A stretch of DNA of 64,000 bases from Bacteriovoracaceae bacterium (GTDB taxonomy: Bacteria; Bdellovibrionota; Bacteriovoracia; Bacteriovoracales; Bacteriovoracaceae). A program made the translations under genes and the position numbers. The stretch lies in NCBI GenBank assembly GCA_021737405.1, contig JAIPEG010000005.1, positions 1 to 64,000 of the forward strand, given 5' to 3'. Of this stretch, positions 1 through 13,315 are shown piece after piece; positions within the stretch are counted from its first letter, which is position 1, and each line of letters opens with the position of its first letter. Under the pieces are notes generated by a model that saw nothing but the letters and a program-made list of their open reading frames with translations, ran no database searches and had not been told where the DNA came from.

Positions 1-1
1 G

Positions 2-100
2 TATATATTTAGACGCTCTTTTTTTAAGCTTATCACTTTTCCATTTATTATACTTATACCTAAAAGTCAGGCAGAAGAAATAGAGAACCTTATGTTTACA
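2..100 (+). CDS. Possible 3' end of a gene entering from the left
   Basis: One plus-strand frame is open from the window edge to a TAA at about 98-100. It encodes about 32 residues with a hydrophobic middle (FPFIILIP) and an acidic end (AEEIENLMFT). A terminator-like hairpin follows directly, which is where one would expect it after the last gene of a transcript. The piece is too short to identify and could be chance. The start lies outside the window. Confidence 0.25.
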
Positions 101-101
101 T

Positions 102-130
102 AAACCACCTGTCTCTAGAGTGGTTTTTAT
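102..130 (+). terminator. Rho-independent terminator-like hairpin
   Basis: AAACCAC and GTGGTTT form a 7-bp stem around an 11-nt loop, followed by a short T-rich tail. It would end a plus-strand transcript coming from the left window edge. Confidence 0.45.
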
Positions 131-164
131 TAAATCACTCTGTTTTCTTGAACGCTGGGATTGT

Positions 165-345
165 TCGAAAAGGAGAGAGCCGAGAAGTGCCGGGGTCATC
201 GAGAGAATGGAATCATCGTATCATTAAGAAGGTAACGGCCACTCGAGTTTAAAGAAGGCCGAAATACTCTAGCCCAACGCCACAACTGATAAGTTAAGTA
301 CATCACTATAGTAGAGATACTTAAGTCAAGTCCCGTCAGCACCAG
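165..345 (+). repeat. Arm A of a long diverged inverted repeat (partner at 3536-3707)
   Basis: This stretch of about 180 nt matches the reverse complement of 3536-3707 along almost its whole length. Shared blocks include ACTCGAGT-type, GATACGATGA, TCTCTCGATG, CTCTACTAT, GTGGCGTT and GACGGG. By eye the identity is about two thirds. No frame stays open in both copies, so it may be an old transposase piece, a structured RNA or a non-coding element end. I do not recognise it. The right partner starts directly after repeat copy 2. Confidence 0.5.
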
Positions 346-501
346 TTGCTAGGAAGTTTACTTCTTCCAATTAGAACCAAAATAACCACATAAATTATTG
401 AAAAGTAGAAAGAAAACTAGTCTGGCACGAAGTAAATATCACAAAAATTTGATAAAGAATATGTGTGAACGGTGAAATAATGCGATCAATTTCTTGTTGA
501 T

Positions 502-522
502 GAGAGCCGAGAAGCGCCGGGG
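502..522 (+). repeat. Second copy of a 21-nt motif also found at 175-195
   Basis: The 21-nt string starting GAGAGCCGAGAAG and ending GCCGGGG occurs at 175-195 (inside inverted-repeat arm A) and again here with one substitution. The rest of 346-544 shows no gene or other structure that I can support. This copy lies about 22 nt left of 130-bp repeat copy 1. Confidence 0.5.
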
Positions 523-544
523 GTAAGGTGAAGATGGATCTAAA

Positions 545-686
545 CGGATAAGAAAAATAAAAGCCCTTTTATAAATAACTCCCCCTATCCCCTAACCTTT
601 ACTATTGGGGGGAATGGGGAAATTTTTGGTTAATTTTTTTAGGAATTGGAAATGAGTTTGGGAATGATTGAGGATGGGTTTATTAA
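545..686 (+). repeat. 130-bp repeat family, copy 1 (diverged, 142 bp)
   Basis: It starts CGGATAAG and ends TTTATTAA like the other copies, but is 12 bp longer in its left half. That half contains CCCCCTATCCCC, which can pair with the downstream GGGGGGAATGGGG. The right half (AGGAAT, then ATGAGTTTGGGAATG and the following codons) is virtually identical to copies 2-5. Its small ORF reads MSLGMIEDGFIKERFCTH and then stops. An IS3 transposase fragment begins at its right edge. Confidence 0.85.
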
Positions 687-800
687 GGAGAGATTTTGTA
701 CACATTAAAGGAAGCGCAGGCTTTGGTCGAGAAGTGGAGAAGAGAGTATAACGAGGTGACGCCTCATAGTTCTGAGCGCCAGCACCGCTGGTAGTATTAC
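687..800 (+). pseudogene. IS3-family transposase, C-terminal remnant
   Basis: The plus frame starting with GGA GAG ATT encodes GEILYTLKEAQALVEKW followed by RREYNEVTPHSS. This is the conserved C-terminal end of IS3-family (IS407-type) OrfB integrases, normally NGEI..SLKEAQ..IEQWRR.YN.VRPHSSLGY. The similarity begins exactly at the right edge of repeat copy 1, so everything upstream, including the DDE residues, is missing. After PHSS the frame is disturbed and ends in stops. It is a dead fragment that marks a sharp recombination junction. Confidence 0.75.
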
Positions 801-906
801 CTAGCCATGAAAAAGAGGTCGTGCTAAGTAAGATAGATTAACTTAGACTAGTTTATGGGGACACCTCACTTTTTCAGCAGACTAATATTACATTAAGGGG
901 ATTATT

Positions 907-1422
907 GTGGAAGATAAGACTGCACTTAAGCTTTTAGAGGAGTTATATCCTCAATTAACTGATGAGCAAAATATACCAGAAGTTTTCAAAACTTTATCAG
1001 AAATCGCAGTACGCTATCATGGTATCAAAACAGCTCAGTCGCTTGCCCTTTTTCTTTCGCCTTTATTGGAATTATATCAAGACAGTCTAGAGGGGGTACT
1101 TGAAGAAAAATCATGGAGACTCCTTCATCTTCTTTTATCTTTAGAAGTACCAGTTGTTAAATGTTTTGAAATTCTTGGACAGGAAGTCCTTTCAAAAGAA
1201 TTTAGTGATTTTTTCTTTAATATTCATGCCAGCATCATTTCAGGTGAAATTGTATCTGAATCCTTTGCCTCAACCTCACTTTTCTCACAGGACTTCCTTG
1301 AGGAACTTAAAGGAAATGAAGCCGAGGGAGATCTACAATCATTTTTTGAAAAAGAAAATGTAGAAAAGTTTAAAAATAACTTTTCATTAAGAAGAATAAT
1401 TAATAAAAAGGACAAAGAGTGA
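907..1422 (+). CDS. Soluble GspF/PilC-like (T2SSF) domain protein
   Basis: 171 aa from a GTG start with AAGGGG 7 nt upstream; no signal peptide or membrane segment. Residues about 75-150 (RLLHLLLSLEVPVVKCFEIL through ISGEIVSESFASTSLFSQDF) line up with the helical cytoplasmic domain of type II secretion and type IV pilus platform proteins: ..TLLSAGVPLLEALEIL, then ..GESLSEAL..GLFP. Known GspF/PilC proteins have two such domains and three membrane helices. This one has a single domain, no membrane anchor, and a helical N-terminal 70 residues I cannot place. No secretion genes are nearby; it sits alone between transposase remnants. The function is unknown, and the family match is by eye. Confidence 0.55.
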   Translation: MEDKTALKLLEELYPQLTDEQNIPEVFKTLSEIAVRYHGIKTAQSLALFLSPLLELYQDSLEGVLEEKSWRLLHLLLSLEVPVVKCFEILGQEVLSKEFSDFFFNIHASIISGEIVSESFASTSLFSQDFLEELKGNEAEGDLQSFFEKENVEKFKNNFSLRRIINKKDKE

Positions 1423-1552
1423 TAACTATTTTGGTTACTATTCAGCGTCTTCAGTTTTAAAAACGTCACTTAGTTTGTCATAATGGTTTTATAGGCTTTA
1501 TCATTCGTTTCATAGGCTCATTACGTTGTTTTCCATTTTTTTTGTGTAAACC

Positions 1553-1936
1553 TTATCTCTTACTTTTTAACCTGTAATAAGTTGATAAAAGTGTATGAGC
1601 AAAGATTATTGTGAGGATAATTGCGGCAATAAAAAAGAAGGGGGCAAGTGACCACAAATGTGCCTTTCCAATTGTACCGTCAATTATAACACTACTTGGA
1701 TATGACAAAGTTATAAAAAATATAAAGAGACTTAAGGGCAGAAACATAAAAACTAAAAGGTAAGATTGAAAATTTTTCGAATCCTTTTCTTTAAAGAAAG
1801 AAATCCTTTGATCACGTCTTAAAAAAATAGTCCTTACTAATTCCTTAATCATGGGATAGGTAGTCCAACTCAAGATTAGACTAAAGAATATGATAATAAT
1901 ATCTCCGAAAGCAAATTCAACCTCAGTAAAGTACAT
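1553..1936 (-). CDS. Small integral membrane protein, unidentified
   Basis: 127 aa with three strongly hydrophobic segments at about residues 10-30, 58-80 and 93-115, separated by a basic, charged stretch (RRDQRISFFKEKDSK). No family is recognised. It ends in basic residues (YRLKSKR). It lies 67 nt downstream of the ankyrin-like gene on the same strand and could be co-transcribed with it. AT-rich codon use is similar to the neighbouring island genes. It is likely a real gene because of its length and clean membrane topology, but no function can be offered. Confidence 0.55.
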   Translation of the reverse strand: MYFTEVEFAFGDIIIIFFSLILSWTTYPMIKELVRTIFLRRDQRISFFKEKDSKNFQSYLLVFMFLPLSLFIFFITLSYPSSVIIDGTIGKAHLWSLAPFFFIAAIILTIIFAHTLLSTYYRLKSKR

Positions 1937-2003
1937 GTTTAAAATCCTTTTTTTCGCTTAAACGCCCGATTCTCTGACAAGTCATTAGACCAATAGCTTA
2001 ACA

Positions 2004-2717
2004 CTATTCTCGCGAACTCACAGGAGACCCGCTTTTAAAAGTGAGCTTTTCCCAAAGACTAAGTTTTGGAACTGGAATAGCATTATGTAGATTAAGTATC
2101 TCAATTCTCTTAGATCGTTGTTTTTTTGATAGCTTAGGATTTTCATAAATCATTCTCTGGGCAGTTTTACCTTTTGGAGTTAAAGCATTCACGTCTCTAG
2201 AGTTTTCTATAATTAATTTAAAAATATCAAGGTTGCTATGTCCATTCATGCATAAGAAATGAATCGGCAAAAGCCCTACATATGAATGATTGATATGAGT
2301 TACTTCGTCAAAACTAGCCCCAAGAGACTTTAATTTTTCAAAATAACCAATAGTGACGCTTTCGCCTTCACTATACAAGAGAGCTAAGTTTAAGTGCCAG
2401 TTGGCCCAGTCTTTTTCAATTTTACTTTTCAATGATAAATTCTTTGGTTTTAATGTATCTATCCATTCTTTGTCTTTAGATAAGGCCCCATAATAGGCAT
2501 TATAGGAAGTTCGAAATCCATGTTTTAATAGAAATTTAACAAATGCGATATCTCCAACGTGGACTGCTACTTCTAAGGCATCTGGGTCATGCACTAGGCT
2601 TGGATTGATTTTAAGTTCTTCCTTTGCTTTTTCAAGTTGAAAATCAAAAATGGATTGAGCAAAGTTTGAGACTACACGCTCTCCACTCCAGCCTTCAGCC
2701 AAGTTTATTAGTCCCAC
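2004..2717 (-). CDS. Ankyrin-repeat-like protein
   Basis: 237 aa, preceded by a good ribosome binding site (AGGAGAG) about 12 nt upstream. It contains degenerate ankyrin units: DALEVAVHVGDIAFVKFLLKHG at about 45-66, a central unit ending YFEKLKSLGASFDEVT, then GLLPIHFLCMNGHSNLDIFKLII followed by DVNALTPKGKTAQRM near the C-terminus. Ankyrin repeats usually mediate protein binding. There is no signal peptide and no catalytic domain is seen. In island context it may be cargo or an immunity-type protein, but nothing nearby proves this. Confidence 0.65.
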   Translation of the reverse strand: MGLINLAEGWSGERVVSNFAQSIFDFQLEKAKEELKINPSLVHDPDALEVAVHVGDIAFVKFLLKHGFRTSYNAYYGALSKDKEWIDTLKPKNLSLKSKIEKDWANWHLNLALLYSEGESVTIGYFEKLKSLGASFDEVTHINHSYVGLLPIHFLCMNGHSNLDIFKLIIENSRDVNALTPKGKTAQRMIYENPKLSKKQRSKRIEILNLHNAIPVPKLSLWEKLTFKSGSPVSSRE

Positions 2718-2889
2718 AGACAGACTCTCCTTTAGAGAAATATAACCTTTTTCAAGAATACTTATTATAGCATTATTTAGGAACGATACATAAGTTTAAG
2801 GTCGTCAGGCTTTTGAAGTGTGCGGGGCTCGGATACCAGCATATTAAACTAGGCCATATTTCTTGATCACGTTAATTCAAAAATAGTTC

Positions 2890-3069
2890 TGCGCGCGCCA
2901 ATTAAGGCAAGAGAAACAGAAGACAACGAAAAAAAGAATTATATTCTACCACGCCGAACTTCTTAAATCAGTTGAGCAAATGAAAGTTCATGGCATTAGT
3001 TCAATCTATTTAGCAATTTCAGAAAATGGAAGAAAGAAACTATCACTAAGAGGTAAATATGATTCATAA
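2890..3069 (+). pseudogene. Unidentified coding remnant
   Basis: A 59-codon open frame without a proper start encodes a basic segment (RQEKQKTTKKRIIF), then YHAELLKSVEQMKVHGISSI and ISENGRKKLSLRGKYDS. The helical, basic character suggests a piece of a DNA-binding or mobile-element protein, but no family is certain. It lies between the ankyrin gene and the IS66 remnant. The rest of 2718-3109 holds no other feature that I can see. Confidence 0.3.
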
Positions 3070-3109
3070 GTAAATCGTCTTTAATCCACGTCTAGACTTT
3101 GTCGGCTTA

Positions 3110-3403
3110 TTATGAATGGGTGTATTGATAAGGAGAATATGGATGTTGAGCCTGGAGAATGTCCCTAACTAGATCCCTTAAATATTCTCTGGGGTTAATT
3201 TTGTTTAATTTGCAACTCTGTACTATTGAAAACATTATTGCTGTTGTTTTTGCCCCTCGCTTAGAATGAGTTCCATACCAAGTTTTCCTGCCAATAACAG
3301 GTGATCTCAACTCTCCTTCTTGCGAGTTACTATCGATAGGAAGCTTCGGATCTTTAGTAAACCGAACTAGATCTTCAAAATTATTTATAAAATAATTACA
3401 AGC
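3110..3403 (-). pseudogene. IS66-family transposase (TnpC), C-terminal remnant
   Basis: The minus frame runs from the edge of repeat copy 2 to a stop at 3110. It encodes NYFINNFEDLVRFTKDPKLP, then IDSNSQEGELRSPVIGRKTW and SKRGAKTTAIMFSIVQSCKL. IS66 TnpC proteins have the same order: ..NRWEALTRFL.D..I.IDNN..ERALRP..IGRKNW....RGAE..A..YSL..TCKLNG. Here the conserved NN is NS. The whole catalytic core is absent, because the fragment begins about 1-2 nt from the left end of repeat copy 2 (3405). Non-functional. Confidence 0.8.
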
Positions 3404-3404
3404 A

Positions 3405-3534
3405 CGGATAAGACAAATGAAGCCCCTTTTCTACCAGTTACAACATCCATTATAGGGGGGAATGGGGAAAGTTTTGGTTAATTTTTTTAGGAATTTGAGA
3501 TGAGTTTGGGAATGATTGAGGATGGGTTTATTAA
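3405..3534 (+). repeat. 130-bp repeat family, copy 2
   Basis: It runs from CGGATAAG to TTTATTAA, 130 bp. It differs from copy 5 at about one position, and both share a few extra bases (AAGCA) to the left. The left half has CCCC...GGGGGGAATGGGG runs that can pair weakly. The right half has AGGAATTTGAG followed by ATG and the 12-codon leader MSLGMIEDGFIK, which here meets TGA at once. Its left edge cuts the IS66 transposase; its right edge adjoins inverted-repeat arm B. Confidence 0.9.
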
Positions 3535-3535
3535 A

Positions 3536-3707
3536 TGACGGGGTCTCACTTTGGCATCTCTACTATCGTGACGTGCTCATATCGTCTGCGTGGCGTTTCC
3601 GCTCGGATCTTTTGGCCTTCGTTTTATCCGAGTAATCGTTACTATCTTGGTGATACGATGAATCCGTTCTCTCGATGGCCCCGATTTTCGTCGACTCTCT
3701 CTATTGA
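3536..3707 (-). repeat. Arm B of a long diverged inverted repeat (partner at 165-345)
   Basis: Read on the minus strand, this segment aligns with 165-345 over about 170 nt, in blocks such as CATCGAGAGAA, TCATCGTATCA, AGTAGAGAT and CCCGTC. It begins one base after repeat copy 2. The two arms enclose about 3.2 kb. In the minus frame about 40 codons stay open, rich in Arg, Ser and Lys, but the other arm has stops in that frame. The nature of the element is unknown. Confidence 0.5.
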
Positions 3708-3810
3708 GCAATAGGTGCTTTTTATTCACGGTCCACTTCAATTATTTTATCATGATTCTATGTTAAAATAGAACAACCAATGAAGATTCGTTTATCTAAA
3801 TTACAATAAC

Positions 3811-3960
3811 TTACTGCAAGGTTTGTAATAATTTTATTTGTGTAAATTGAACGAATAGATATTCCTTTTCTGGGGGAATAGGAGCATTTTCGAGTAGTTT
3901 ACTTTTTGATACTTCATCACCGTGGCCACAGGCAGTACAATGTATTAGCAAAAAAATTGC
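3811..3960 (-). pseudogene. Zinc-ribbon-like coding remnant
   Basis: A minus frame of 49 residues without a start codon begins AIFLLIHCTACGHGDEV and continues KSKLLENAPIPPEKEYLF to a TAA. CTACGHGDE resembles half of a Cys4 zinc ribbon, as found in several transposase families, but the partner cysteine pair is missing. It is bounded upstream by TGA. It is probably debris of a mobile element. Between 3708 and 3810 I see nothing. Confidence 0.3.
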
Positions 3961-4014
3961 TCAGGAAGGTCGATAAGGACAAATAAAAAAAAATGCTAAT
4001 AACATTTATGATAT

Positions 4015-4569
4015 CTAAACAGGCAAAATTGTCTTTATCCATGCTCCTTGGTAGGCGGTGACTGTGGTTAGTCGTATCCATGTTTTATTTGCAACAACTT
4101 CGTGGACCATTTCAATAATATATTTATTTTGATACTTTCTTTTTAAAACACAATGGCGTTCATCAAACCTTTCTTCTAGCTCTGAGGAAATTCGTTCGGA
4201 TATATTTGAGAGGGTATCTCTGGGAATTAGTTGTTTATTTATGGTTAAGACTTGAGCCATGTCACCTCTTCTTATTATGATTTCTCCATTCGAATCGATT
4301 TGGATGCTTTCCCAGTCATCATGTTTCATAAATTGATCAAGGATGCCGAGTTTAAAATAACAAGAATACATAAAGTCTGCTAAGAATTTATTATCGTCGA
4401 TATTGTCTAATTCAGACAAGATAAGATCTATATTTCTCTCCTGATTACTTTGTGCTTCGTCAACTTCTAATTGTGCAATTAGTTTTTCGAAAATACGTAT
4501 CTTTATCTCAGAGAAACGCTCAGGGGTTTCAATCGAGTTTAATCTATTTATAAATTCTTCTAGTTTCAT
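4015..4569 (-). CDS. Hypothetical protein, unidentified
   Basis: 184 aa, acidic and soluble, no signal peptide, no recognised domain. Notable segments are a helical N-terminus (LEEFINRLNSIETPERFSEI) and a C-terminal basic strand-rich part (RKYQNKYIIEMVHEVVANKT, then ending IKTILPV). AAGGTT lies about 6-11 nt upstream of the ATG, a weak ribosome binding site. It stands between a dead fragment and an IS3 transposase remnant and could be intact cargo. Function unknown. Confidence 0.5.
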   Translation of the reverse strand: MKLEEFINRLNSIETPERFSEIKIRIFEKLIAQLEVDEAQSNQERNIDLILSELDNIDDNKFLADFMYSCYFKLGILDQFMKHDDWESIQIDSNGEIIIRRGDMAQVLTINKQLIPRDTLSNISERISSELEERFDERHCVLKRKYQNKYIIEMVHEVVANKTWIRLTTVTAYQGAWIKTILPV

Positions 4570-4665
4570 ACTTTAACCTTCTGGTTATTTACCTAGGATT
4601 AAGTCCTACAGGCTTTTTTTTTAAGGATATTAAAATGATCTTCCCTTAAAAAAACGTACCCACTT

Positions 4666-5175
4666 TTAAGCAACAAGACAGTTAGTCTTTTCAACATGAT
4701 CTACTGGACTCAAATAGCCAAGTGATGAGTGAAGTCCATCTCGATTATACCAGTTTATATATTCAAAAATCATTATTTTTGCCTCGGCAAGATCATTAAA
4801 ACATGTCTTTTCAAGTTCATTTTTAAGTGTGTGAAAAGAACTTTCCACAAAGGTATTGTCGTAGCAGCTCCCTTTCCTAGACATAGACTGAGTTATGCCT
4901 AGTAACGAAATCTTTTTTCTGACGGCCTGAGAGCAATATTGAACACCTTGGTCTGAGTGAAACGTAAGCTCTTTTAAGCTGCCAGGAGTACCTTTCACGG
5001 CATTTAACAGAGAGTTCTTAGTATTATCAGCGTCCATTGAGTCACTAATATCCCAGCCTTTTATCTCACGATTATAGAGATCCATCACGACAACCAAATA
5101 ACAAAAGCCATTTTTAGTCTGAATATAAGTTAAGTCTGATGCCCATACGTCTCCATGTGTTGTTAAGCTATGAAT
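4666..5175 (-). pseudogene. IS3-family transposase (OrfB), 5'-truncated
   Basis: The open minus frame encodes about 169 residues, starting IHSLTTHGDVWASDLTYI and continuing through FCYLVVVMDLYNREIKGW, FHSDQGVQYCS, then MSRKGSCYDNTFVESSFHTL and YINWYNRDGLHSSLGYLSP. This is the DDE catalytic domain of IS3/IS150-type OrfB: first Asp in WASDLTY, second in HSDQGVQY, Glu in the VESSFHTLKNE region. The normal N-terminal 100 or so residues and OrfA are missing; the frame is closed by TAG at 5176-5178. It is a remnant even though the catalytic residues remain. Confidence 0.85.
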
Positions 5176-5223
5176 CTAATTTACAGGAAAATTAATAATT
5201 GAAAATGTGGGGTACCTTGATGA

Positions 5224-5409
5224 TTTACGGAAAAGGTTTCATATACCTACGATAATTGGTTTCTGGATCGTTTAGGCCCTGCGGAGCCTTTTGAAGAGTA
5301 TTGTCGAAGATCTAGAAAGTATGCGATGTACTATATTCTCAAATATTCCAATGGGGATAATTTTCTGTTTGCACCGGTCATGACAACTGAGATTACAGCT
5401 GGCTTATAA
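5224..5409 (+). pseudogene. Unidentified coding remnant
   Basis: A 61-codon plus frame without a start codon encodes VSYTYDNWFLDRLGPAEPFE, EYCRRSRKYAMYYILKYSNG and DNFLFAPVMTTEITAGL, then TAA. The composition is protein-like, with many aromatic residues and no low complexity, so it is probably the tail of a lost gene. No family is recognised. It lies between the truncated IS3 transposase and repeat copy 3. Confidence 0.35.
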
Positions 5410-5477
5410 CAGCACATTTGTAGATTTATAGATCTAATAATAAGTCCCACATTTTTCTTGAAAAATCACAGAACAAA

Positions 5478-5607
5478 CGGATAAGACAAATGACGCCCCT
5501 TTTCTACAAGTTACAAAATCTATTATAGGGGGGAATGGGGAAAGTTTTGGTTAATTTTTTTAGGAATTTGAGATGAGTTTGGGAATGATTGAGGATGGGT
5601 TTATTAA
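5478..5607 (+). repeat. 130-bp repeat family, copy 3
   Basis: It has the same 130-bp unit and ends as copies 2, 4 and 5, with a handful of substitutions in the left half. Its leader ORF starts at 5573 with MSLGMIEDGFIK. Because the next sequence has no early stop, it runs on for 79 codons over an unrelated integrase remnant on the other strand. The left flank is non-coding; the right flank is the decayed integrase. Confidence 0.9.
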
Positions 5608-5623
5608 GCATCTTATTATCATT

Positions 5624-5980
5624 TTATCCATCGAAAAAGTTATTCTTGCGCAATGGGGCGGGTTCATAAATGACAGGTCGTTTCTTAGGCGCTCTAATTC
5701 TTGGCATATCTGTCGTATCGTAGTGATGTCAATCATGAACCCACCTATAGAAAACTCTGACTGCTGTGAGGTGGCGATTGATACTATGAGCGGAGAATTT
5801 CTTTTTAACTAAATCAAGTTGGTAAGCTTTGATCTCAGAAATACACAGCGACTTTCCCTCTCGTCCTTCATAAAAGTCAAAGAACTTTTTTAGTGATCTT
5901 TCATAGCTAGATATGGTTCTTGGAGATAGTGCTCTGAGTTCCATCTCATCTCTAAAACGTTTTTGTTCTTCATTATTCAT
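5624..5980 (-). pseudogene. Tyrosine recombinase (IS91-associated type), N-terminal remnant
   Basis: The minus frame begins MNNEEQKRFRDEMELRALSP and continues RTISSYERSLKKFFDFYEGR, IKAYQLDLVKKKFSAHSINR, HLTAVRVFYRWVHD. This is the SAM-like core-binding domain of tyrosine recombinases, closest in style to the integrases that precede IS91-family transposases (..YAPRTIETYV..F..HFG..P....EVRAYQLHL...). A TGA at 5729-5731 interrupts it. The same frame then continues with MPRIRAPKKRPVIYEP before a final stop near repeat copy 3. The catalytic domain is absent. The ATG has GAGGGA 6 nt upstream, the same leader as the second fragment at 7172. Confidence 0.75.
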
Positions 5981-6084
5981 TTAATCCCTCATTGGATTGT
6001 TTATCGAAGGGAGTAGAATAAATGATAGATTAATTGTTTATTGTAATGGTTAATTAATTGATGAGGGCCATGAGTAAGGCCGAG

Positions 6085-6142
6085 TTAGGCTATAATTAAG
6101 GGCTGCGTTTCTGGTCGCCCCACTTGCAAGGCGGTTAGTCCA
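6085..6142 (+). repeat. Left arm of an inverted repeat around the 6267 gene
   Basis: The block ending AAGGCGGTTAGTCCA (6128-6142) is the exact reverse complement of 7015-7029. Outside that 15-bp core, CGCCCC and AAGGGCT blocks also match in the same order, over roughly 50 bp. The arms enclose about 900 bp with one gene. This looks like cassette or insertion-element ends. The core GTTAG is reminiscent of recombination core sites but does not fit the GTTRRRY consensus there. Confidence 0.55.
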
Positions 6143-6266
6143 TTGCCAAATAATCCGTCTAAAATAAAGGCTATTTTCGAGCGTTATTTCCTCTACTCTG
6201 TGTTTTTTCAATTTTTTAAACTAAATTGAGGGAAGGTCAAACGACTGTTTACGATAATCTTGCTGA

Positions 6267-7070
6267 TTAATTTAGAGGTTTAGTATCCATTTTCGAAAAA
6301 CTTAGCAGTAGCTCTCTAAATGCCTTTAAATTTATAAGCATAAGTGTTTTGTCCTCATTATCACCTGTATTTAAAGCATGATAATCATAAGTTATATCAA
6401 TATTTTTATTATTAGATTTGTATTTTAAATGATGCCATTCTCTCTTATCAGGAGCTCTACTCATTGGACCTGTTCTTCCTGCTTGAGACTTAGTAAGCTG
6501 ATTCTTTGATATGTAACTGCTGATTTTCTCTATTTGTTCCTTAGAAAGAACAACTGAAGGACGGCTTTGTGGAATCTGACTAGTCGGTCTTGAGTATGAT
6601 TTACTATAATGAACACTTTTGCCGTCAAAAATCATTTCATGAGAGCTTCCACTGTCAGATACATTTTCTTCTGAATATTGAACACTATAACTTAACCTAT
6701 CAACGATCATATTCTTATCCTGTTTTTTGTTTTGAGCAAAGCTAGATTGCAAGCTAAGAAAATTAACTATTCCAAATAAAAAGGTAAAAAAATAAATTTG
6801 GTATTTCTCATGAGATGAGCATATTAAATTACGTATCTTCTTTAATTTATAAAGGTAGAATTTTTTTATATTATTCTCAAGCCTAATGGTTGTTTCTCTT
6901 CTTAAGGCCATTTTAATAGTCTTTCCTGTACATTGCATATCCAAGTATAGTTCCATAATTAATAGACATAAAGATTCTAAACGTGTTTTCTCATCTACAG
7001 AATGTGTGTGACAGTGGACTAACCGCCTTGGGGCGGGGCGTATTATGGCGAAAGCCCTTGCTATAACCAA
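6267..7070 (-). CDS. Secreted or membrane-anchored hypothetical protein
   Basis: The frame gives 267 aa from the first ATG, but its first 18 or so codons come from the inverted-repeat arm. A start at Met54 (6911) is more likely. A hydrophobic segment (IYFFTFLFGIVNFLSLQSSF) ends with an Ala-Gln suitable for signal-peptide cleavage. The mature part, about 150 aa, contains DRLSYSVQYSEENVSDSGSS, then a Ser/Pro-rich stretch, and ends with NLKAFRELLLSFSKMDTKPL. No family is recognised. The gene sits between two inverted-repeat arms and two oppositely oriented integrase starts, so it looks like a cargo gene. The true start is uncertain. Confidence 0.5.
   Translation of the reverse strand: MVIARAFAIIRPAPRRLVHCHTHSVDEKTRLESLCLLIMELYLDMQCTGKTIKMALRRETTIRLENNIKKFYLYKLKKIRNLICSSHEKYQIYFFTFLFGIVNFLSLQSSFAQNKKQDKNMIVDRLSYSVQYSEENVSDSGSSHEMIFDGKSVHYSKSYSRPTSQIPQSRPSVVLSKEQIEKISSYISKNQLTKSQAGRTGPMSRAPDKREWHHLKYKSNNKNIDITYDYHALNTGDNEDKTLMLINLKAFRELLLSFSKMDTKPLN
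7015..7063 (-). repeat. Right arm of an inverted repeat around the 6267 gene
   Basis: Partner of 6085-6142. The exact 15-bp core is TGGACTAACCGCCTT at 7015-7029, followed by GGGGCGGGGCG and AAGCCCTTGC. The segment CCGCCTTGGGGCGG can itself form a short GC-rich hairpin. Confidence 0.55.
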
Positions 7071-7171
7071 ATCTGGTCTTATTTAGTGTCTAAAACCTTA
7101 ACCTTTTTCCCTCAAAATGTCCTCATTTTTCTATCTTAACCCCTCCTATTAACAATCCTAGGAGGGATTAA

Positions 7172-7223
7172 ATGAACAAAAGAGAACAGCAAAGATTTAC
7201 TGAAGAAATGGAAGTACGGGCGA
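7172..7223 (+). pseudogene. Tyrosine recombinase, first 17 codons only
   Basis: After an excellent ribosome binding site (GGAGGGA) the ATG opens MNKREQQRFTEEMEVRA. This matches the start of the integrase remnant at 5980 (MNNEEQKRFRDEMELRA) in both protein and leader DNA. The reading ends exactly where repeat copy 4 begins. The two integrase starts point away from each other across the 6267 gene, as if two copies of one element had been broken at this place. Confidence 0.7.
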
Positions 7224-7353
7224 CGGATAAGACAAATGAAGCCCCTTTTCTAACAGTTACAACATCCATTATAGGGGGGAATGGGGAAATTTTTGGTTAA
7301 TTTTTTTAGGAATTTGAGATGAGTTTGGGAATGATTGAGGATGGGTTTATTAA
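7224..7353 (+). repeat. 130-bp repeat family, copy 4
   Basis: 130 bp, nearly identical to copy 5. The left edge truncates the integrase start. The right edge (TTATTAA) supplies, on the minus strand, the TAA stop of the winged-helix gene. Its plus-strand leader reads MSLGMIEDGFIKERYERLQC and continues to 33 codons. Confidence 0.9.
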
Positions 7354-7628
7354 GGAGCGCTATGAGCGGTTGCAATGCCTTTTAAAACCTGCCCCGGCCT
7401 TACTGGAAATAAAAACTTAATCGAGCTAGTAATAACATCAAATAATGAGCTTCTTGCAGGTATTTTTTTTGATGGGTCTATCAATCCAGAATCAGAAAGG
7501 CGGGCCAATGCTTTTGAGACCTCAGACTGGCTTAAGGATAAAGAGCTTGAGATTTCATTCATGTTCCAATCTTTATTTTCTAAAGCAATGATCTTCAATA
7601 ATATAACTATGTCTTGTGCTTTCAACAT
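7350..7628 (-). CDS. Winged-helix transcriptional regulator, 3'-truncated
   Basis: 92 aa. Residues 1-60 form a MarR-like winged helix: LKAQDIVILLKIIALENKDW, NMNEISSSLSLSQSEVSKAL and RLSDSGLID. SQSEVSKALARL is the recognition helix. The rest (FLFPVRPGQVLKGIATAHSAP) is the start of a conserved C-terminal region in this small family, which normally goes on further. Here it stops because repeat copy 4 supplies TAA directly after the final Pro. The DNA-binding part is complete, so the product may still bind DNA. A near-perfect palindrome lies 17 nt upstream of the ATG, a likely self-operator. Confidence 0.6.
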   Translation of the reverse strand: MLKAQDIVILLKIIALENKDWNMNEISSSLSLSQSEVSKALARLSDSGLIDPSKKIPARSSLFDVITSSIKFLFPVRPGQVLKGIATAHSAP

Positions 7629-7644
7629 GGGTCTAGTTTAGCAC

Positions 7645-7681
7645 GAATATTCCATATTCCAAATCGGAATATAGAATATTC
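7645..7681. promoter_or_regulatory. Operator-like palindrome
   Basis: Two 16-nt arms, GAATATTCCATATTCC and GGAATATAGAATATTC, pair with a single mismatch around a 5-nt spacer. Each arm is itself a double GAATAT/ATATTC motif. The position directly upstream of the winged-helix regulator suggests autoregulation. The 215 nt between this site and 7897 hold no gene that I can support. Confidence 0.5.
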
Positions 7682-7896
7682 TCTTAAATTCGGAATCTTA
7701 TCAGCATCAACTCCGCTAACCTTTAGATTAAAAGGCTATATAGAAAGTATAAAAAATGCCAAATCCTTAGAAGTTGATAATCAGAATTACTATCCTGTAA
7801 AACTTAAAAAGATCTCTGTTTTAATAATCCAAGTCACTAGATGACAGAGTGATTCAATAGAAAATCACTCATTAGAAAAGTTTCTTAGATTGAGGT

Positions 7897-8880
7897 CTAG
7901 GGAAGAGTCCACATATAGCCATTTGTTTCTGATATGGAAGACTTGTTTCCAAAGAAAGGTCCGAAATATAATAGTCTATCGTTGTTATCTTTTTGAAAGT
8001 CAATATTCATATATGAAGAACTGTACTCAACATCTCCAACGTTTAGTGTAATAAAACCACCAATTTGAATAAGGTCTTTTATTGAATTTGCTGCATTCAA
8101 TTTTAGTCTTGTCCGTGCATCCGAGTTTCGAATACTTCCCTGATTAAAATTAGAAAAACCACTGATTATAGCATTGTTTGGAATTAATATATTTGCCTGA
8201 TCAACTCTTGATTTATTTATAAAGGCAAAGTTACTTCCTACAAATCCAGAAGCCTCTAAAAGAGTTTTATCACCCCTATCAATTAAGAGAGTATGGACTA
8301 TTGAATTATTAATAATTCCATAATTATAAACAGCAAAGCCATAAACATTAGAAGAGTTATTATCTGCAAATATAGTTGTGCACTCATTGATAATACCTTC
8401 TTCAAGGTTTGTTATAACAAAACCAGCGCTATACGTGGAATCGCTATTCCTATTTTCAATAGATAAATCACTACTCACATGTACGTTAGATATTAAGCCA
8501 TTATTTTCACTTATAAAGGGTGTCTGCTCATAAAATGAAACTTCTTCATTGCTATAATATCGAACACTTAATTTAAGATTTTTTATTGTGCTATCTTTTT
8601 TCAGTCTGCCAATGAGATATAAAGCTCGTTCATCAAAATCAGTAATATCAATACCTAAGTTTAAGTTGTAATTTTGGCCGTCTAAATTGCCACGAAAGGA
8701 AGGGATCTGGACATCTTGAAGTTTTAAGTCATAACAGCTTAGGTCGGAAACAAGCAAAAATTTATCATTAGGATATTTTTTCAATAAGCGAAAATCGTCA
8801 CAGCTTCTTATTGGGTATGTAAAACTAGAAAAAGCGTTTAATGAAAAAATTAACACAAGTAAGCTAAAACATATTTTCAT
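7897..8880 (-). CDS. Secreted protein with GLUG-like beta-helix repeats
   Basis: 327 aa with a clear signal peptide (MKICFSLLVLIFSLNAFSS). The mature part opens with a Cys pair region (SCDDF, DLSCYDL). It then has FRGNLDGQNYNLNL and several repeats of the type GF..xN.G.I.NS: GLISNVHVSS, GFVITNLEEGIINECTT, GFAVYNYGIINNSIV, GFVGSNFAFINKSRV, GFSNFNQGSIRNSDA. Such repeats fold as right-handed beta-helices and occur in surface or adhesive proteins. The ATG follows the TGA of the upstream ORF without a gap, with GGAG as ribosome binding site, so the two are translationally coupled. The ligand or role is unknown. Confidence 0.6.
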   Translation of the reverse strand: MKICFSLLVLIFSLNAFSSFTYPIRSCDDFRLLKKYPNDKFLLVSDLSCYDLKLQDVQIPSFRGNLDGQNYNLNLGIDITDFDERALYLIGRLKKDSTIKNLKLSVRYYSNEEVSFYEQTPFISENNGLISNVHVSSDLSIENRNSDSTYSAGFVITNLEEGIINECTTIFADNNSSNVYGFAVYNYGIINNSIVHTLLIDRGDKTLLEASGFVGSNFAFINKSRVDQANILIPNNAIISGFSNFNQGSIRNSDARTRLKLNAANSIKDLIQIGGFITLNVGDVEYSSSYMNIDFQKDNNDRLLYFGPFFGNKSSISETNGYMWTLP

Positions 8881-9063
8881 TCAGTTCTCCAAAAAAATGG
8901 TAATTTTATCTAATTGTAATAGAAGTTCTTTTTCGTGTATATATGGAACTCGGGTAGCTTGAAGCTTTACTTCAAGCAATAGTTTGGAGTTGAATTTTTC
9001 CAAGATGTTAGTGAACCTGACTAAAACACCTGTATTAAAAAAAGTAACTTTTTGAGAGTCCAT
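8881..9063 (-). CDS. Small protein coupled to the GLUG-like gene
   Basis: 60 aa (MDSQKVTFFNTGVLVRFTNI then EKELLLQLDKITIFLEN), soluble, no known domain. Its TGA abuts the ATG of the secreted repeat protein, and the GGAG used by that gene lies in its last codons. No strong ribosome binding site of its own is seen. It could be a short regulatory ORF or the remnant of a larger gene. Confidence 0.35.
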   Translation of the reverse strand: MDSQKVTFFNTGVLVRFTNILEKFNSKLLLEVKLQATRVPYIHEKELLLQLDKITIFLEN

Positions 9064-9129
9064 TTAACAGGAAATATGTGACAGGCCTTGATCTTATTTC
9101 GGATGGTCGAAAAAATTAAGTCATAAGCA

Positions 9130-9259
9130 CGGATAAGACAAATGAAGCCCCTTTTCTACCAGTTACAACATCCATTATAGGGGGGAATGGGGAAATTTTT
9201 GGTTAATTTTTTTAGGAATTTGAGATGAGTTTGGGAATGATTGAGGATGGGTTTATTAA
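9130..9259 (+). repeat. 130-bp repeat family, copy 5 (possible oriIS end of the IS91 element)
   Basis: 130 bp, differing from copy 2 at about one base. It ends 55 bp from the stop codon of the IS91-family transposase, on the side where IS91 elements carry their replication origin (3' of tnp). The leader ORF reads MSLGMIEDGFIKDRNDGVF and then stops. Confidence 0.85.
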
Positions 9260-9314
9260 AGACCGAAATGATGGGGTTTTTTAGGAATTTGGGCATAGGG
9301 GTTTGTGAGAGAAG

Positions 9315-10772
9315 TTACCAGTTTGTCTCTTGATTGAATTCTGTGTCAAAATTGGCGGCTTCGAAGTCTTGTGGTGGTGCTCTGGCCGTATCGAAGGTTG
9401 GGGAGCTGGTTGAGATTTCTAAGTGGTTTAAGATTTTCTTGGCGACTATTCTATTCTTTATCGTGGCCACGTACTCAAGTGTTTCGCCACAGCGGTGACA
9501 GGCCGTAACATCTTTGAGGAAGACATGTTTTAAAAGTTCGGCCCATGGTGTGCGGTAGGATTTCTTTTTAGGAGCTTGATTCGATTTTTTTGATTTCTTT
9601 GAATTGGCCCAGTCTTTTGCTTTCTTTGTGACACTTTTTCTTTTCTTATTATTTGCGGCAAACACTCCATGGTAGCGAACGAGGTTCATTCTTGGCGGAG
9701 GGATGAGTGCCATGAGACGGGCCGTAAACTGCTCTTTTGTGAAGGATAAGTGGGTGGTTCCAGATTTATAGGGCGTTTTTAATTTTAATAGCACCCTCTC
9801 CTGCCCTACGATTGTGATTCTAGATTTTGCCAGCGGGCCTCGAAGAATGTAGCGGCACATTTTTTCTAATGCACCTCTGGCATGACCTGGTATTCTGGAG
9901 TTCGCATGGAGACTAAAGCCATCTAGATAGGCGCATCTCTTTCCCGAATACTCCTCAAAAGGAGGGTCATAAATCTTTCCAATTTCAACAGGCTTTTTTA
10001 ATTGGCCCTTTTCTTCTCTTACAAAATTAAGAACACTTTGGGCATGTTGGTCACTACTCTTATCATCTGCTGCTTCTTGGAAATCATCATCAAGGAGACC
10101 TTCCTTTTTAAAAATGCGATTGATGAGTGTTTTGCACTTTTTGATGAGATCTCTAACATCATCATCATCTGGTAGGAAGAAATCATCCTCATTATAGACG
10201 CCGTCCATAAATAAGATATGGAAATGGGTATTTAGATTAAGAGCTCCTCCAAAACGTTGGATAACAGAAACCGACCCCTTGACCCCTTTATCTAGTCCAT
10301 AAATGCGCTTTGCTTTCTTCTTATAAAAGGTAGAGATGGCACGGATAATACAGTTTAAAACTTTTGTATTTAGAAGCGGGTTATAGGCCAGGTGATAGCG
10401 GTGTTTATAAGGTAAAGAGAGTACCCATTGACTCACCGACACCGGAGGAATCACCTCATGAAGCAAATGCTTTGCTGTATCCGCCATTTTTCGACCAGTG
10501 CAGCTTGGACAAATAGTTCTGCCCTTGCAACTAAAGGCCACCAACTTGTCACTCTGACAAAGATTACAGCGAAGCCTAACAAAACCTTCTGAGAGAACTC
10601 CACAAGTGAGATATTTTTTTTACTCCCTTTGAACATGAAAGGGAATTGGCTCACCTAAGTGCTCTTTTCTTTGACGAATGTCTTCATAGCTGGATTTGAT
10701 AATTTTATGGAGGTCTGTTTTCGTGGGGTCACGAATATCAGAATGATTTTTGAATAAGTCTAGCGCCTCCAT
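9315..10772 (-). pseudogene. IS91-family rolling-circle transposase with an in-frame stop
   Basis: From ATG at 10772 (MEALDLFKNHSDIRDP) the frame reads ..HLGEPIPFHVQRE, then TAA at 10620-10622, then KKYLTCGVLSEGFVRLRCNL and on to 9315, about 485 codons in total. The family pattern is clear: an N-terminal zinc finger (CGVL..RCNLC..CPSC), SVIQRFGGALNLNTHFHILF (the HxH motif of Y2-type HUH transposases), a central region with LVRYHG, and a C-terminal zinc finger (CHRCGETLEY). Other members have REFxKYLxCG, so one codon has become a stop. Translation from a later start would lose the first zinc-binding part. Probably inactive unless read through. Confidence 0.85.
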
Positions 10773-10865
10773 AAGGAACAGTTTTATGGAAGATAAATGA
10801 ATGGGAATAGCTAAAGCTTAGAACTATTTTTTATTTGAAATCAAATTCATGAGTGTTAGTGAAAC

Positions 10866-12110
10866 CTATAACCCTTTTGAAGAGATCTTGAAGTGGCGTG
10901 AAACTTTTCCAACGGAGAGGGAGGGGTTTTCTATAATATGGGACTCTATCCATTTCTTAGTGAGGCATGAGTATCCACCTATTCCCCAACCACTTCCCCA
11001 GCTATTTACTACCAGGTGACAATATTCGCCTTCTTTTTGATGAAGTTCTTTTGGTAAGGGCACACTGCCAATGGCCAAAACGGTATGAGCATATTGCTTC
11101 TCAATTTTCTTCCCTTTTTTTAGACCCATTGAAATTAGGCCATCATTGATGAGAAACAGGTCATCAACATAAAATCCCATAACCGTAGGTTTACGGTTTT
11201 TCACTTCTTCATATATGTCTTCAACTTTGTTGATGGAAGTATAACTTTTTAAAAAATATTTCCCATTAAAGCAGCTCTCTTTTAAAGGCAAATGAGTGAT
11301 GTTCTCGGGTTTAAATTCATAACTATATGGGCAATGCTTCTCTTCAGTCATAAAGGCAGTTTGTTTTGCAAGGGTCTCTAAACCAATTCTTGCCCAACTG
11401 CCAGCAAGAGTGCATTTACTCTTTTGGCAATCAGTTCGGCTTAAATAAAAGAACAATTGCTCTGATAAATTTAATCTTTTAGGAAAGAGATTAATCTCCA
11501 TTGCCCTCACAGAAGCAAACGCCGCACAAGTTGATCGCTCTCCCTGATGGCGAATAGGGAGGGAGAAAGTTTTTGAAAGAATATTTTGTTTTATAACAGA
11601 AGGAGATGAAGCTCCCAACAAGACCACCTCTTCTGTTGATGATTTTAAGAGCCCAGAACTTTTAGGCGTTTCCTGAGCCTTTTCCTTTTTTAGAGTCTTT
11701 GCTGGGATCAGGTATTTCTTTACTCTCTTAATACTTTTATTAAACTTTTGTTTTTCAGTACTCCACTTTTCTAAGATTTTCTTTTTATCTTTTATCCATT
11801 GCTGTTCTTTTTTCTTATTTTCTTTAAACCAATTATTCGTCTCTTTTACTCTTTCCTTTTGCCAAGACTCCTCTGAAGGTTCATCAAAGGCGCCACCGAA
11901 AGTAGGTTCTACGTTTTCTTTTGGTACAGGAGAAGGTGTTGTATTGTCGGTAACTAATACCTTTCTTTTTTCTTTAGCAACTTCTCCCTTAACAGAGCTG
12001 ACAACAATTTCTTCATAGGTTTCGGGGTCGACTCTCCAATCATCACCAACAATACTCTGTGCGTAATTAGCATTCATCCAAAAAGTGAGTAATAGAATTG
12101 TTTTCTTCAT
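10866..12110 (-). CDS. Secreted papain-like (C1A) cysteine protease
   Basis: 414 aa with a signal peptide (MKKTILLLTFWMNANYAQS), then a Lys/Glu-rich, coiled-coil-prone stretch to about residue 145. The C1A domain follows: LPIRHQGERSTCAAFASV with the catalytic Cys, AHTVLAIGS with the His, VVNSWGSGWGIGGYSCL with the Asn and the usual NSWGxxWG signature. Several further cysteines may form disulfides. The charged segment could be a propeptide or a spacer. The gene marks the border between the repeat-rich island and the core chromosome; 10773-10865 and 12111-12361 hold no gene that I can see. Probable role: extracytoplasmic protein degradation. Confidence 0.8.
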   Translation of the reverse strand: MKKTILLLTFWMNANYAQSIVGDDWRVDPETYEEIVVSSVKGEVAKEKRKVLVTDNTTPSPVPKENVEPTFGGAFDEPSEESWQKERVKETNNWFKENKKKEQQWIKDKKKILEKWSTEKQKFNKSIKRVKKYLIPAKTLKKEKAQETPKSSGLLKSSTEEVVLLGASSPSVIKQNILSKTFSLPIRHQGERSTCAAFASVRAMEINLFPKRLNLSEQLFFYLSRTDCQKSKCTLAGSWARIGLETLAKQTAFMTEEKHCPYSYEFKPENITHLPLKESCFNGKYFLKSYTSINKVEDIYEEVKNRKPTVMGFYVDDLFLINDGLISMGLKKGKKIEKQYAHTVLAIGSVPLPKELHQKEGEYCHLVVNSWGSGWGIGGYSCLTKKWIESHIIENPSLSVGKVSRHFKISSKGL

Positions 12111-12361: not shown

Positions 12362-13315
12362 ATGAGCAATATTAAGGCCGACCCAAAAGCAAAAAGACCT
12401 GATTGGCTAAAAGTCAGGGCCCCTACGAGCAAGTCGTATCACAATATTAAAGACATGCTCGGTGAGTTAAAGCTCGCGACTGTTTGCCAAGAGGCCATCT
12501 GTCCTAATATTGAAGAATGCTGGGGCGGCGGTACTGCGACCTTTATGCTTATGGGTGACACTTGCACCCGTGCTTGTCGCTTTTGCGCCGTGAAAACCGG
12601 AAACCCTAAAGGTATTCTCGATTTAGAGGAACCTCAAAAAGTTGGTTACGCCATCTCACAGATGAAGCTTGATTATGTGGTGCTTACCAGTGTTGATCGA
12701 GATGATCTTGAAGACCTTGGTGCTGATCACTTTGCAAGAACGATTGAAGTGATCAAAGAAAATAACCCTGACATGGTTGTGGAAGTTTTAACTCCTGACT
12801 TCAATGCCGTGCCTGAACATGTGGCGCGTATTCTTGCCGCAAAACCAGATGTCTTCGCCCATAACATTGAAACGACTGAGGCCTTAACTCCTCAGGTAAG
12901 AGATCGTCGCTCTCAATACAGAAAGTCTTTAAAAACGTTAAGCCTAGCTAAAGAAATTAACCCCAAACAATACACCAAGACTTCTATTATGTTGGGACTT
13001 GGGGAAAGTGATGAAGATATTCTTCAGGCCCTCAAAGATCTCAGAGAAGTAGGCTGTGACGTTGTTACTTTTGGTCAGTACCTGGCCCCAACGAATCGCC
13101 ATAAAAAATATCTTCCAATCCTGGAATATGTTAAGCCAGAAAGATTTGATCACTGGAAAGATGTGGCCGATGAAATGGGCTTTCTTTACTGCGCCTCTGG
13201 TCCTCTCGTCAGAAGTTCTTACCGTGCTGGTGAGTTCTTTATGAAAGGCGTGATTGAGAAACAGCGTAAAGAGGAAATGATGAAAGACACTCGCCCAAGT
13301 TATCCAAGTCTCTAA
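12362..13315 (+). CDS. lipA: Lipoyl synthase
   Basis: 317 aa. Radical-SAM enzyme that inserts two sulfurs into protein-bound octanoyl groups to give lipoate. Both Fe-S clusters are visible: CQEAICPNIEECW (auxiliary cluster) and CTRACRFC (SAM cluster, CxxxCxxC). Also seen are DYVVLTSVDRDDLEDLGADH, PDVFAHNIETT and the C-terminal LVRSSYRAGE. Length is normal. Its TAA overlaps the ATG of lipB by one base, so the two steps of lipoate synthesis are coupled. A TACAGT at 12350-12355 could be a -10 box just ahead of the ATG. Confidence 0.97.
   Translation: MSNIKADPKAKRPDWLKVRAPTSKSYHNIKDMLGELKLATVCQEAICPNIEECWGGGTATFMLMGDTCTRACRFCAVKTGNPKGILDLEEPQKVGYAISQMKLDYVVLTSVDRDDLEDLGADHFARTIEVIKENNPDMVVEVLTPDFNAVPEHVARILAAKPDVFAHNIETTEALTPQVRDRRSQYRKSLKTLSLAKEINPKQYTKTSIMLGLGESDEDILQALKDLREVGCDVVTFGQYLAPTNRHKKYLPILEYVKPERFDHWKDVADEMGFLYCASGPLVRSSYRAGEFFMKGVIEKQRKEEMMKDTRPSYPSL

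Follow-up and report, generated by a model that had tools for sequence, protein, structure and literature searches.

Repeat copies beside a lipA-like gene

We examined a stretch of 64,000 nucleotides from a Bacteriovoracaceae bacterium (assembly GCA_021737405.1, contig JAIPEG010000005.1, positions 1 to 64,000; hereafter, the window), focusing on five direct copies of a short repeat that precede a gene we take, from its sequence, to be lipA-like. All five copies are on the plus strand, and in register their starts lie 2848, 2073, 1746 and 1906 bp apart. An initial annotation, made from the sequence alone, had described their coordinates, lengths and shared orientation, and in all of these it was accurate (Table 1). 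It had called copies 2 to 5 nearly identical units of exactly 130 bp, and they indeed have this length and share 95.5 to 99.3% identity. Copies 2 and 5 are the closest pair (99.3% over 136 aligned bases), followed by 2 and 4 (98.5%), 2 and 3 (96.9%), 3 and 5 (96.2%) and 3 and 4 (95.5%). Copy 1, reported as 142 bp long with a diverged left half, has substitutions and 12 inserted nucleotides toward its left side, where it is 77 to 84% identical to the other copies, compared with 96 to 97% in the last 75 nt.

A candidate sixth copy, partial and also on the plus strand, lies between copy 5 and the stop codon of a transposase gene. Its local score of 42 was reached by none of 2000 single-base shuffles, and across 37 loci its 15-base word (at most one mismatch) is present 15 times, 14 of these within repeats. 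The repeat profile matches it with an E value of 3.3, and we regard it as a probable, weak copy.

The window belongs to a draft assembly of 56 contigs that is about 84% complete. BLAST of this genome returned 15 matches, of which five are in the window's contig (C7), nine in a contig of 37.4 kb (C8) and one, weak and partial, in C26. Copies from this genome match copy 5 with E values of 1.3e-61 to 6.3e-34, and therefore their likeness is not due to chance. The C26 match (200095-200128, locus L015), the sole one outside C7 and C8, spans 34 bp by BLAST and 62 bp by profile. A profile search of C7 and C8 added one copy, giving 15 there (a count that leaves out the partial copy beside copy 5 and a weak plus-strand match in C8 with E values of 0.017 and 0.086). 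Fourteen are on the plus strand and one is on the minus strand, a bias with a binomial p of 0.001 if the copies are independent.

Outside this genome the repeat is rare. Among 59 genomes searched by BLAST (its own included), matches occur in two, the second being a Bacteriovoracaceae metagenome-assembled genome of the same genus (G002), a draft of about 210 contigs of which eight were also scanned with the profile and the remainder by BLAST only. A collection of species genomes, scanned with one exact pattern, gave 17 loci. Three of these have a strong profile match, and all three belong to Bacteriovoracaceae bacterium isolate CPBay_Spr15L08_3 (JAFMBV010000004.1, JAFMBV010000034.1); the other 14 match the profile at E 0.012 or worse, or not at all. 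Phage records and plasmid records contain no match. One stretch among the viral contigs has a 25-nt match at E 0.01, and a second pattern found nothing there. Rfam holds no credible family for the unit, and the portions of the literature that were searched contain no description of it. The repeat was initially said to be of unknown type, and across these collections it still is. The search against host and related genomes that had been proposed thus gave 15 copies on two contigs and matches in two of 59 genomes.

Sharp ends in an island of changing content

The unit is non-coding, shorter than 200 bp, multicopy and bounded by two defined ends. The two genomes show these ends, CGGATAAG and TTTATTAA, repeatedly in settings that are otherwise unrelated, and the ends are recognisable even in diverged copies. 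Homologous flanks were not found, and the earlier view of the repeat as a defined element agrees with this. Inspection of the flanks, another check that had been suggested, found them unrelated, with several ends abutting fragments of transposase or recombinase genes. To the left of copy 1, homology with a second dispersed repeat of G002 (repeat X) stops within one base of the element, and its right end adjoins the final part of an IS3 (insertion sequence 3) transposase. The IS66 transposase fragment at the left end of copy 2 starts at profile position 306. Copy 3 is located at the point where a tyrosine recombinase gene decays, and copy 4 lies between 17 codons that look like the beginning of this recombinase gene and an open reading frame (ORF) with weak helix-turn-helix (HTH) matches. 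A partial copy in G002 sits at a broken IS256 transposase gene. The DNA between copies is otherwise dissimilar, sharing only repeat X and two short recombinase-like pieces.

The copies of the window's genome sit in an island of changing genes beside the lipA-like gene. Contig C8 is probably directly left of the window, because a G002 contig (C117) carries, in unchanged order and direction, counterparts of the right end of C8 (96.6%) and of window positions 424-543 (93.3%). The G002 contig with most copies (C202) shows the same core genes, the lipA-like gene and its neighbour, and then repeat copies. The other border was traced with the help of a hydrolase gene, which in relatives stands before the lipA-like gene; it is on contig C6 in the window's genome and on C30 in G002, where a repeat occurs about 1.5 kb past the neighbouring lipoprotein gene. 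In three relatives (G004, G005 and G001) the lipoprotein and lipA-like genes are adjacent, about 70, 130 and 400 bp apart, respectively. In G006 other ORFs lie between them, and the contig of G003 is too short to judge the arrangement. The order C6, C8, C7 is inferred. If the contigs belong together, the island measures at least about 55 kb in the window's genome and 65 kb in G002, excluding gaps. Thus, the island of G002 occupies the same place and has the same repeats, with mostly different genes. Further G002 copies are on contigs of unplaced position, some of them beside genes that look chromosomal by eye. On locus L031 of G002 (17949-17985) there is also a weak match resembling the right end (E 0.04-0.08), in opposite orientation, just past the stop codon of the border gene.

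We identified 36 ORFs of at least 90 amino acids in C8 and window positions 1-10800 (15 plus, 21 minus). Seven of them match, as proteins, an ORF on the compared G002 contigs (E <= 1e-4), and one of the 36 has a match in C202. Repeats aside, C8 and positions 1-12000 of C7 share nine DNA matches with these contigs. Five are island pieces, at 97.4% (698 bp), 96.6% (178 bp), 93.8% (833 bp), 93.3% (120 bp) and 87.0% (1195 bp) identity, as found by a similarity search, which favours pieces that are alike. The others are two scraps of 59 and 39 bp (81 and 92%), the border gene (88.9%) and an IS3 transposase pair. Core DNA beside the island is 76.7% (18.0 kb) and 78.3% (3.8 kb) identical between the two genomes, and three further loci gave 73.2, 73.2 and 68.2%. 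Since the five pieces are 87 to 97% identical and the measured core overall 68 to 85%, island DNA looks exchanged after the split of the two lineages; these five pieces were probably transferred in this way, and exchange between the lineages is strongly suggested. In both genomes the 833-bp piece starts within a repeat, in its right half, and the 698-bp piece (window 3939-4635) is followed directly by a repeat in G002, where the window has 4636-5460 interposed before copy 3.

Nature of the repeat and its candidate movers

Our tentative preference, held at a little short of even confidence, sees in the unit a mobile repeat of unusual type within a hypervariable island. The repeat would be short, non-coding and non-autonomous, resembling miniature inverted-repeat transposable elements (MITEs) in size and behaviour. 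It would have entered this chromosomal island many times, with the initial spread of copies presumably driven by a transposase. Later, copies mostly in one orientation may have acted as patches for homologous recombination, which would have joined the left flank of one insertion to the right flank of another and allowed the intervening DNA to drop out, come in or be exchanged. Broken genes whose other half was not seen on the far side fit such swapping of flanks between copies, and would also fit other rearrangement. The repeat is like ERIC/RU-1 (127 bp), Correia elements and RUP in being small, non-coding and multicopy, and RUP insertions have been reported inside insertion sequences of several families (PMC2229807). 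Flexible genomic islands exchanged by homologous recombination (PMC4033161) are alike in having different content at the same locus and in exchange between lineages, but here a short repeat family runs throughout the island.

Several observations count against this reading. Terminal inverted repeats and target duplications are found in most of the small bacterial mobile repeats described (PMC2229807), and unlike ERIC/RU-1, Correia elements and RUP our repeat has no evident inverted repeats at its ends and no target duplications. The left 20 nt of copy 5, compared by eye with the reverse complement of its right 20 nt, reveal no inverted repeat, and apparent target duplications average 2.0 nt over 14 copies against 2.15 nt for re-paired flanks. 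The repeat also differs from those families in being nearly confined to one region of its own genome and biased in orientation, both atypical of mobile repeats, while the bias in G002 is weak (9 of 12 copies on C202 in the window's orientation relative to the lipA-like gene, p 0.15, two matches with E over 0.01 dropped). For none of the broken genes was the other half seen across the same copy, no clean pair of filled and empty sites was found, and no chimeric copy indicates recombination inside the repeat. For the copy on G002 contig C172, the empty-site comparison matched just 238 of 2961 query bases in the window's genome, at 68%. As regards exchange, the shared IS3 transposase pair is only 66% identical (498 bp), and high identity between the genomes is not confined to the island: core identity rises to 85-86% within 4 kb of the island's lipA side, and a recombinase gene on other contigs (G000, the window's genome, C55 1-1010, L137; G002 C172 6969-7978, L037) is 93.1% identical.

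The repeats could instead be pieces from the end or origin of a rolling-circle (HUH) element of the ISCR/IS91 type, whose one-ended transposition would pick up neighbouring DNA and leave an array of unrelated segments behind repeats in the same orientation. We consider this unlikely, although the gene next to copy 5, 55 bp away by its stop codon, encodes an ISCR/IS91-like transposase (249 bits to ISCR clade Ia and 87 bits to IS91, both below the model cut-offs), and the gap holds the probable partial repeat copy. IS91-like elements are not known to leave target duplications, and the repeat has none; the orientation bias of the window's genome fits as well. ISCR elements are believed to be capable of moving the genes next to them (PMC13393415). 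However, a Y2_Tnp match is present in one of the seven genomes of the genus, that of the window, and in none of the other six, which include the repeat-bearing G002. The partial copy matches the profile poorly, and nothing repeat-like was recognised upstream of the transposase gene (198 of 1000 shuffles score as high). Among the plasmid matches listed, the top match of this transposase, whose gene sits here on a Bdellovibrionota chromosome, is on a Bdellovibrio plasmid (38.8% identity), and the stretch around that relative holds no convincing repeat match (best E 0.8). IS91 uses the target words GTTC or CTTG next to its origin end, but one of these occurs 2-3 bases from the left end in just 3 of 14 copies. 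ISCR ends are also described as forming secondary structures (PMC13393415), which we did not see in the repeat.

A related proposal, which we hold to be somewhat more doubtful, is an integron-like gene-capture array without IntI or attC. In it the 130-bp unit would be a site used by the ISCR-like rolling-circle transposase or by a recombinase, joining unrelated units of one to few genes mostly one way at a fixed locus and traded between Bacteriovoracaceae species. In a test for an autonomous partner, the one candidate gene was this transposase, which has at most one end in common with the repeat; it is a suspect as the mover, but no such gene was found in G002. The initial suggestion of a defined element or recombination site stands in part: exchange of island DNA is well supported, and that the repeat is a recombination site is an inference; a dedicated recombination system acting there is possible. 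Reading some copies as att-like half-copies with one internal breakpoint did not hold up, as the breakpoints are scattered and traces of the right end persist in several "left-only" copies; nor does copy 1 find support as a chimera. The hypervariable island of these Bacteriovoracaceae relatives, with the repeat family running throughout, has pieces that look exchanged although the core DNA measured in the two lineages is only 68 to 85% identical. If the repeat were a mobilising site, it would represent a cassette system outside integrons; otherwise, it would be a mobile repeat that lacks the customary inverted repeats and target duplications, and would serve as a recombination marker in this group.

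Other possible movers were considered, and none held up. A tyrosine recombinase gene is located about 1.4 kb from a repeat on G002 contig C172. It was rejected as a partner because it is nearly universal in the family (matches at E <= 0.001, paralogs included, in 127 of 129 genomes, against 2 of 59 for the repeat) and because the likeness of its upstream region to the repeat is within that of shuffles (in 20 comparisons, between 13 and 290 of every 300 shuffles did as well). The gene is nonetheless unusually similar in the two repeat-bearing genomes (the 93.1% given above). An IS200/IS605 derivative was also rejected: no Y1 transposase match was seen in the window's genome, at about 84% completeness, and G002 has one.

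A functional RNA or regulatory sequence under selection is improbable. Four copies in C8 precede a gene that points the same way, at a distance of about 80-150 bp, as such a role might predict, but copies occur in convergent, tandem and divergent contexts alike, and alongside the absence of a credible Rfam family the unit shows no codon periodicity, no consensus secondary structure across copies and, when three copies were folded six times in all, z-scores that never fell below -1.2. Folding the unit as single-stranded DNA and RNA, which had been recommended, thus revealed no fold beyond chance. A coding interpretation was also discarded; in many copies MSLGMIEDGFIK can be read from the right part, but variation is no higher at third codon positions than at the others.

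A chromosomal integron, or a cluster of attC sites lacking integron-integrases (CALIN), with the repeats as attC sites, is less probable still. Like superintegrons and CALINs, the island strings together diverse small gene units, each behind a repeat of about 130 bp that mostly keeps one orientation. Between sites there are often only one or a few genes, and the cargo includes toxin-antitoxin-like genes. The boxes of attC are R'' (RYYYAAC) and R' (GTTRRRY). By contrast, none of the 14 two-ended copies has an R-box pair on either strand, the integrase model stays below its cut-off at all seven places matched in the window's genome (again, about 84% complete), and gene orientation is mixed (the 15 and 21 ORFs above). 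The integron interpretation therefore fails on three defining features, and one segment carries a 7-kb gene. Finally, a tandem or segmental duplication confined to the locus is very improbable: copies 2 to 5 are neighbours and nearly identical, but the stretches between them are unrelated, contrary to the single duplication history with homologous flanks that had been named as a threat to the idea of a mobile unit, and copies exist on several G002 contigs, some of which look chromosomal in their neighbouring genes.

Other features of the island

Coordinates are collected in Table 1. Toxin-antitoxin-like cargo in repeat-bearing segments includes a RelE/ParE type (L017 16021-16644; its neighbour has no family match) and Doc-type and DUF6036 nucleotidyltransferase genes (L035 5014-5394 and L016 14469-14921). 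A gene between two repeats, at L016 5647-12645 (minus strand), encodes a protein of 2332 amino acids with a C-terminal chaperone of endosialidase (Peptidase_S74) domain. Repeat X, the second dispersed family in the island, is about 200 bp long and has no credible Rfam match.

Table 1. Features of the locus and related sites (window positions unless a contig or locus is named)
Feature	Position	Strand	Remark
Repeat copy 1 (142 bp, long left-part type)	545..686	+	Left end breaks off X member; right end abuts IS3-type transposase fragment
IS3 transposase C-terminal fragment, starts at copy 1	687..791	+	35 aa, E 0.0023
IS66 transposase C-terminal fragment, ends at copy 2	3113..3403	-	E 1.5e-24
Repeat copy 2 (130 bp)	3405..3534	+	Left end abuts IS66 transposase fragment; right end abuts truncated X repeat
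Gene of unassigned function, within segment 3939-4635	4015..4569	-	Segment 97.4% in G002, repeat directly after
Stretch with IS3 transposase fragment, between the segment of gene 4015-4569 and copy 3	4636..5460	.	Window's genome
Repeat copy 3 (130 bp)	5478..5607	+	In G002, repeat directly after counterpart of gene 4015-4569
N-terminal part of tyrosine recombinase, decays toward copy 3	5729..5980	-	Family match
17 codons resembling start of recombinase at 5980, end at copy 4	7172..7222	+	Likeness to the 5729..5980 (-) piece alone
Repeat copy 4 (130 bp)	7224..7353	+	Left: 17 recombinase-like codons; right: ORF with weak HTH matches, running into repeat
Repeat copy 5 (130 bp)	9130..9259	+	55 bp from stop codon of ISCR/IS91-like transposase gene
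Partial repeat copy, probable, weak	9265..9309	+	Shuffle score and 15-base word; profile E 3.3
ISCR/IS91-like (Y2) transposase gene	9315..10772 (listed ORF 9315-10544)	-	In-frame stop between first 50 codons and rest
lipA-side border gene	10866..12110	-	No NCBIfam match; 88% identical protein at same place in G002
lipA-like core gene (presumed)	12362..13315	+	Locus anchor in seven genomes
Repeat X members	157-372, 480-542, 3536-3721 (-); C8 31960-32179; G002 C117 12191-12300		
Palindrome sites	G002 C172 8071-8100 (L037); G001 C100 3894-3923 (L138); L139 16210; L142 10387; L143 3773		

A near-perfect palindrome of 30 bp lies about 92-93 bp upstream of a tyrosine recombinase gene in G001, G002, G004 and G005, all of the genus; G003 has a variant of it farther upstream. 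When the genomes are compared, DNA similarity begins at the palindrome and is lost beyond it. The arrangement resembles a dif-type site next to a lone Xer-like recombinase.

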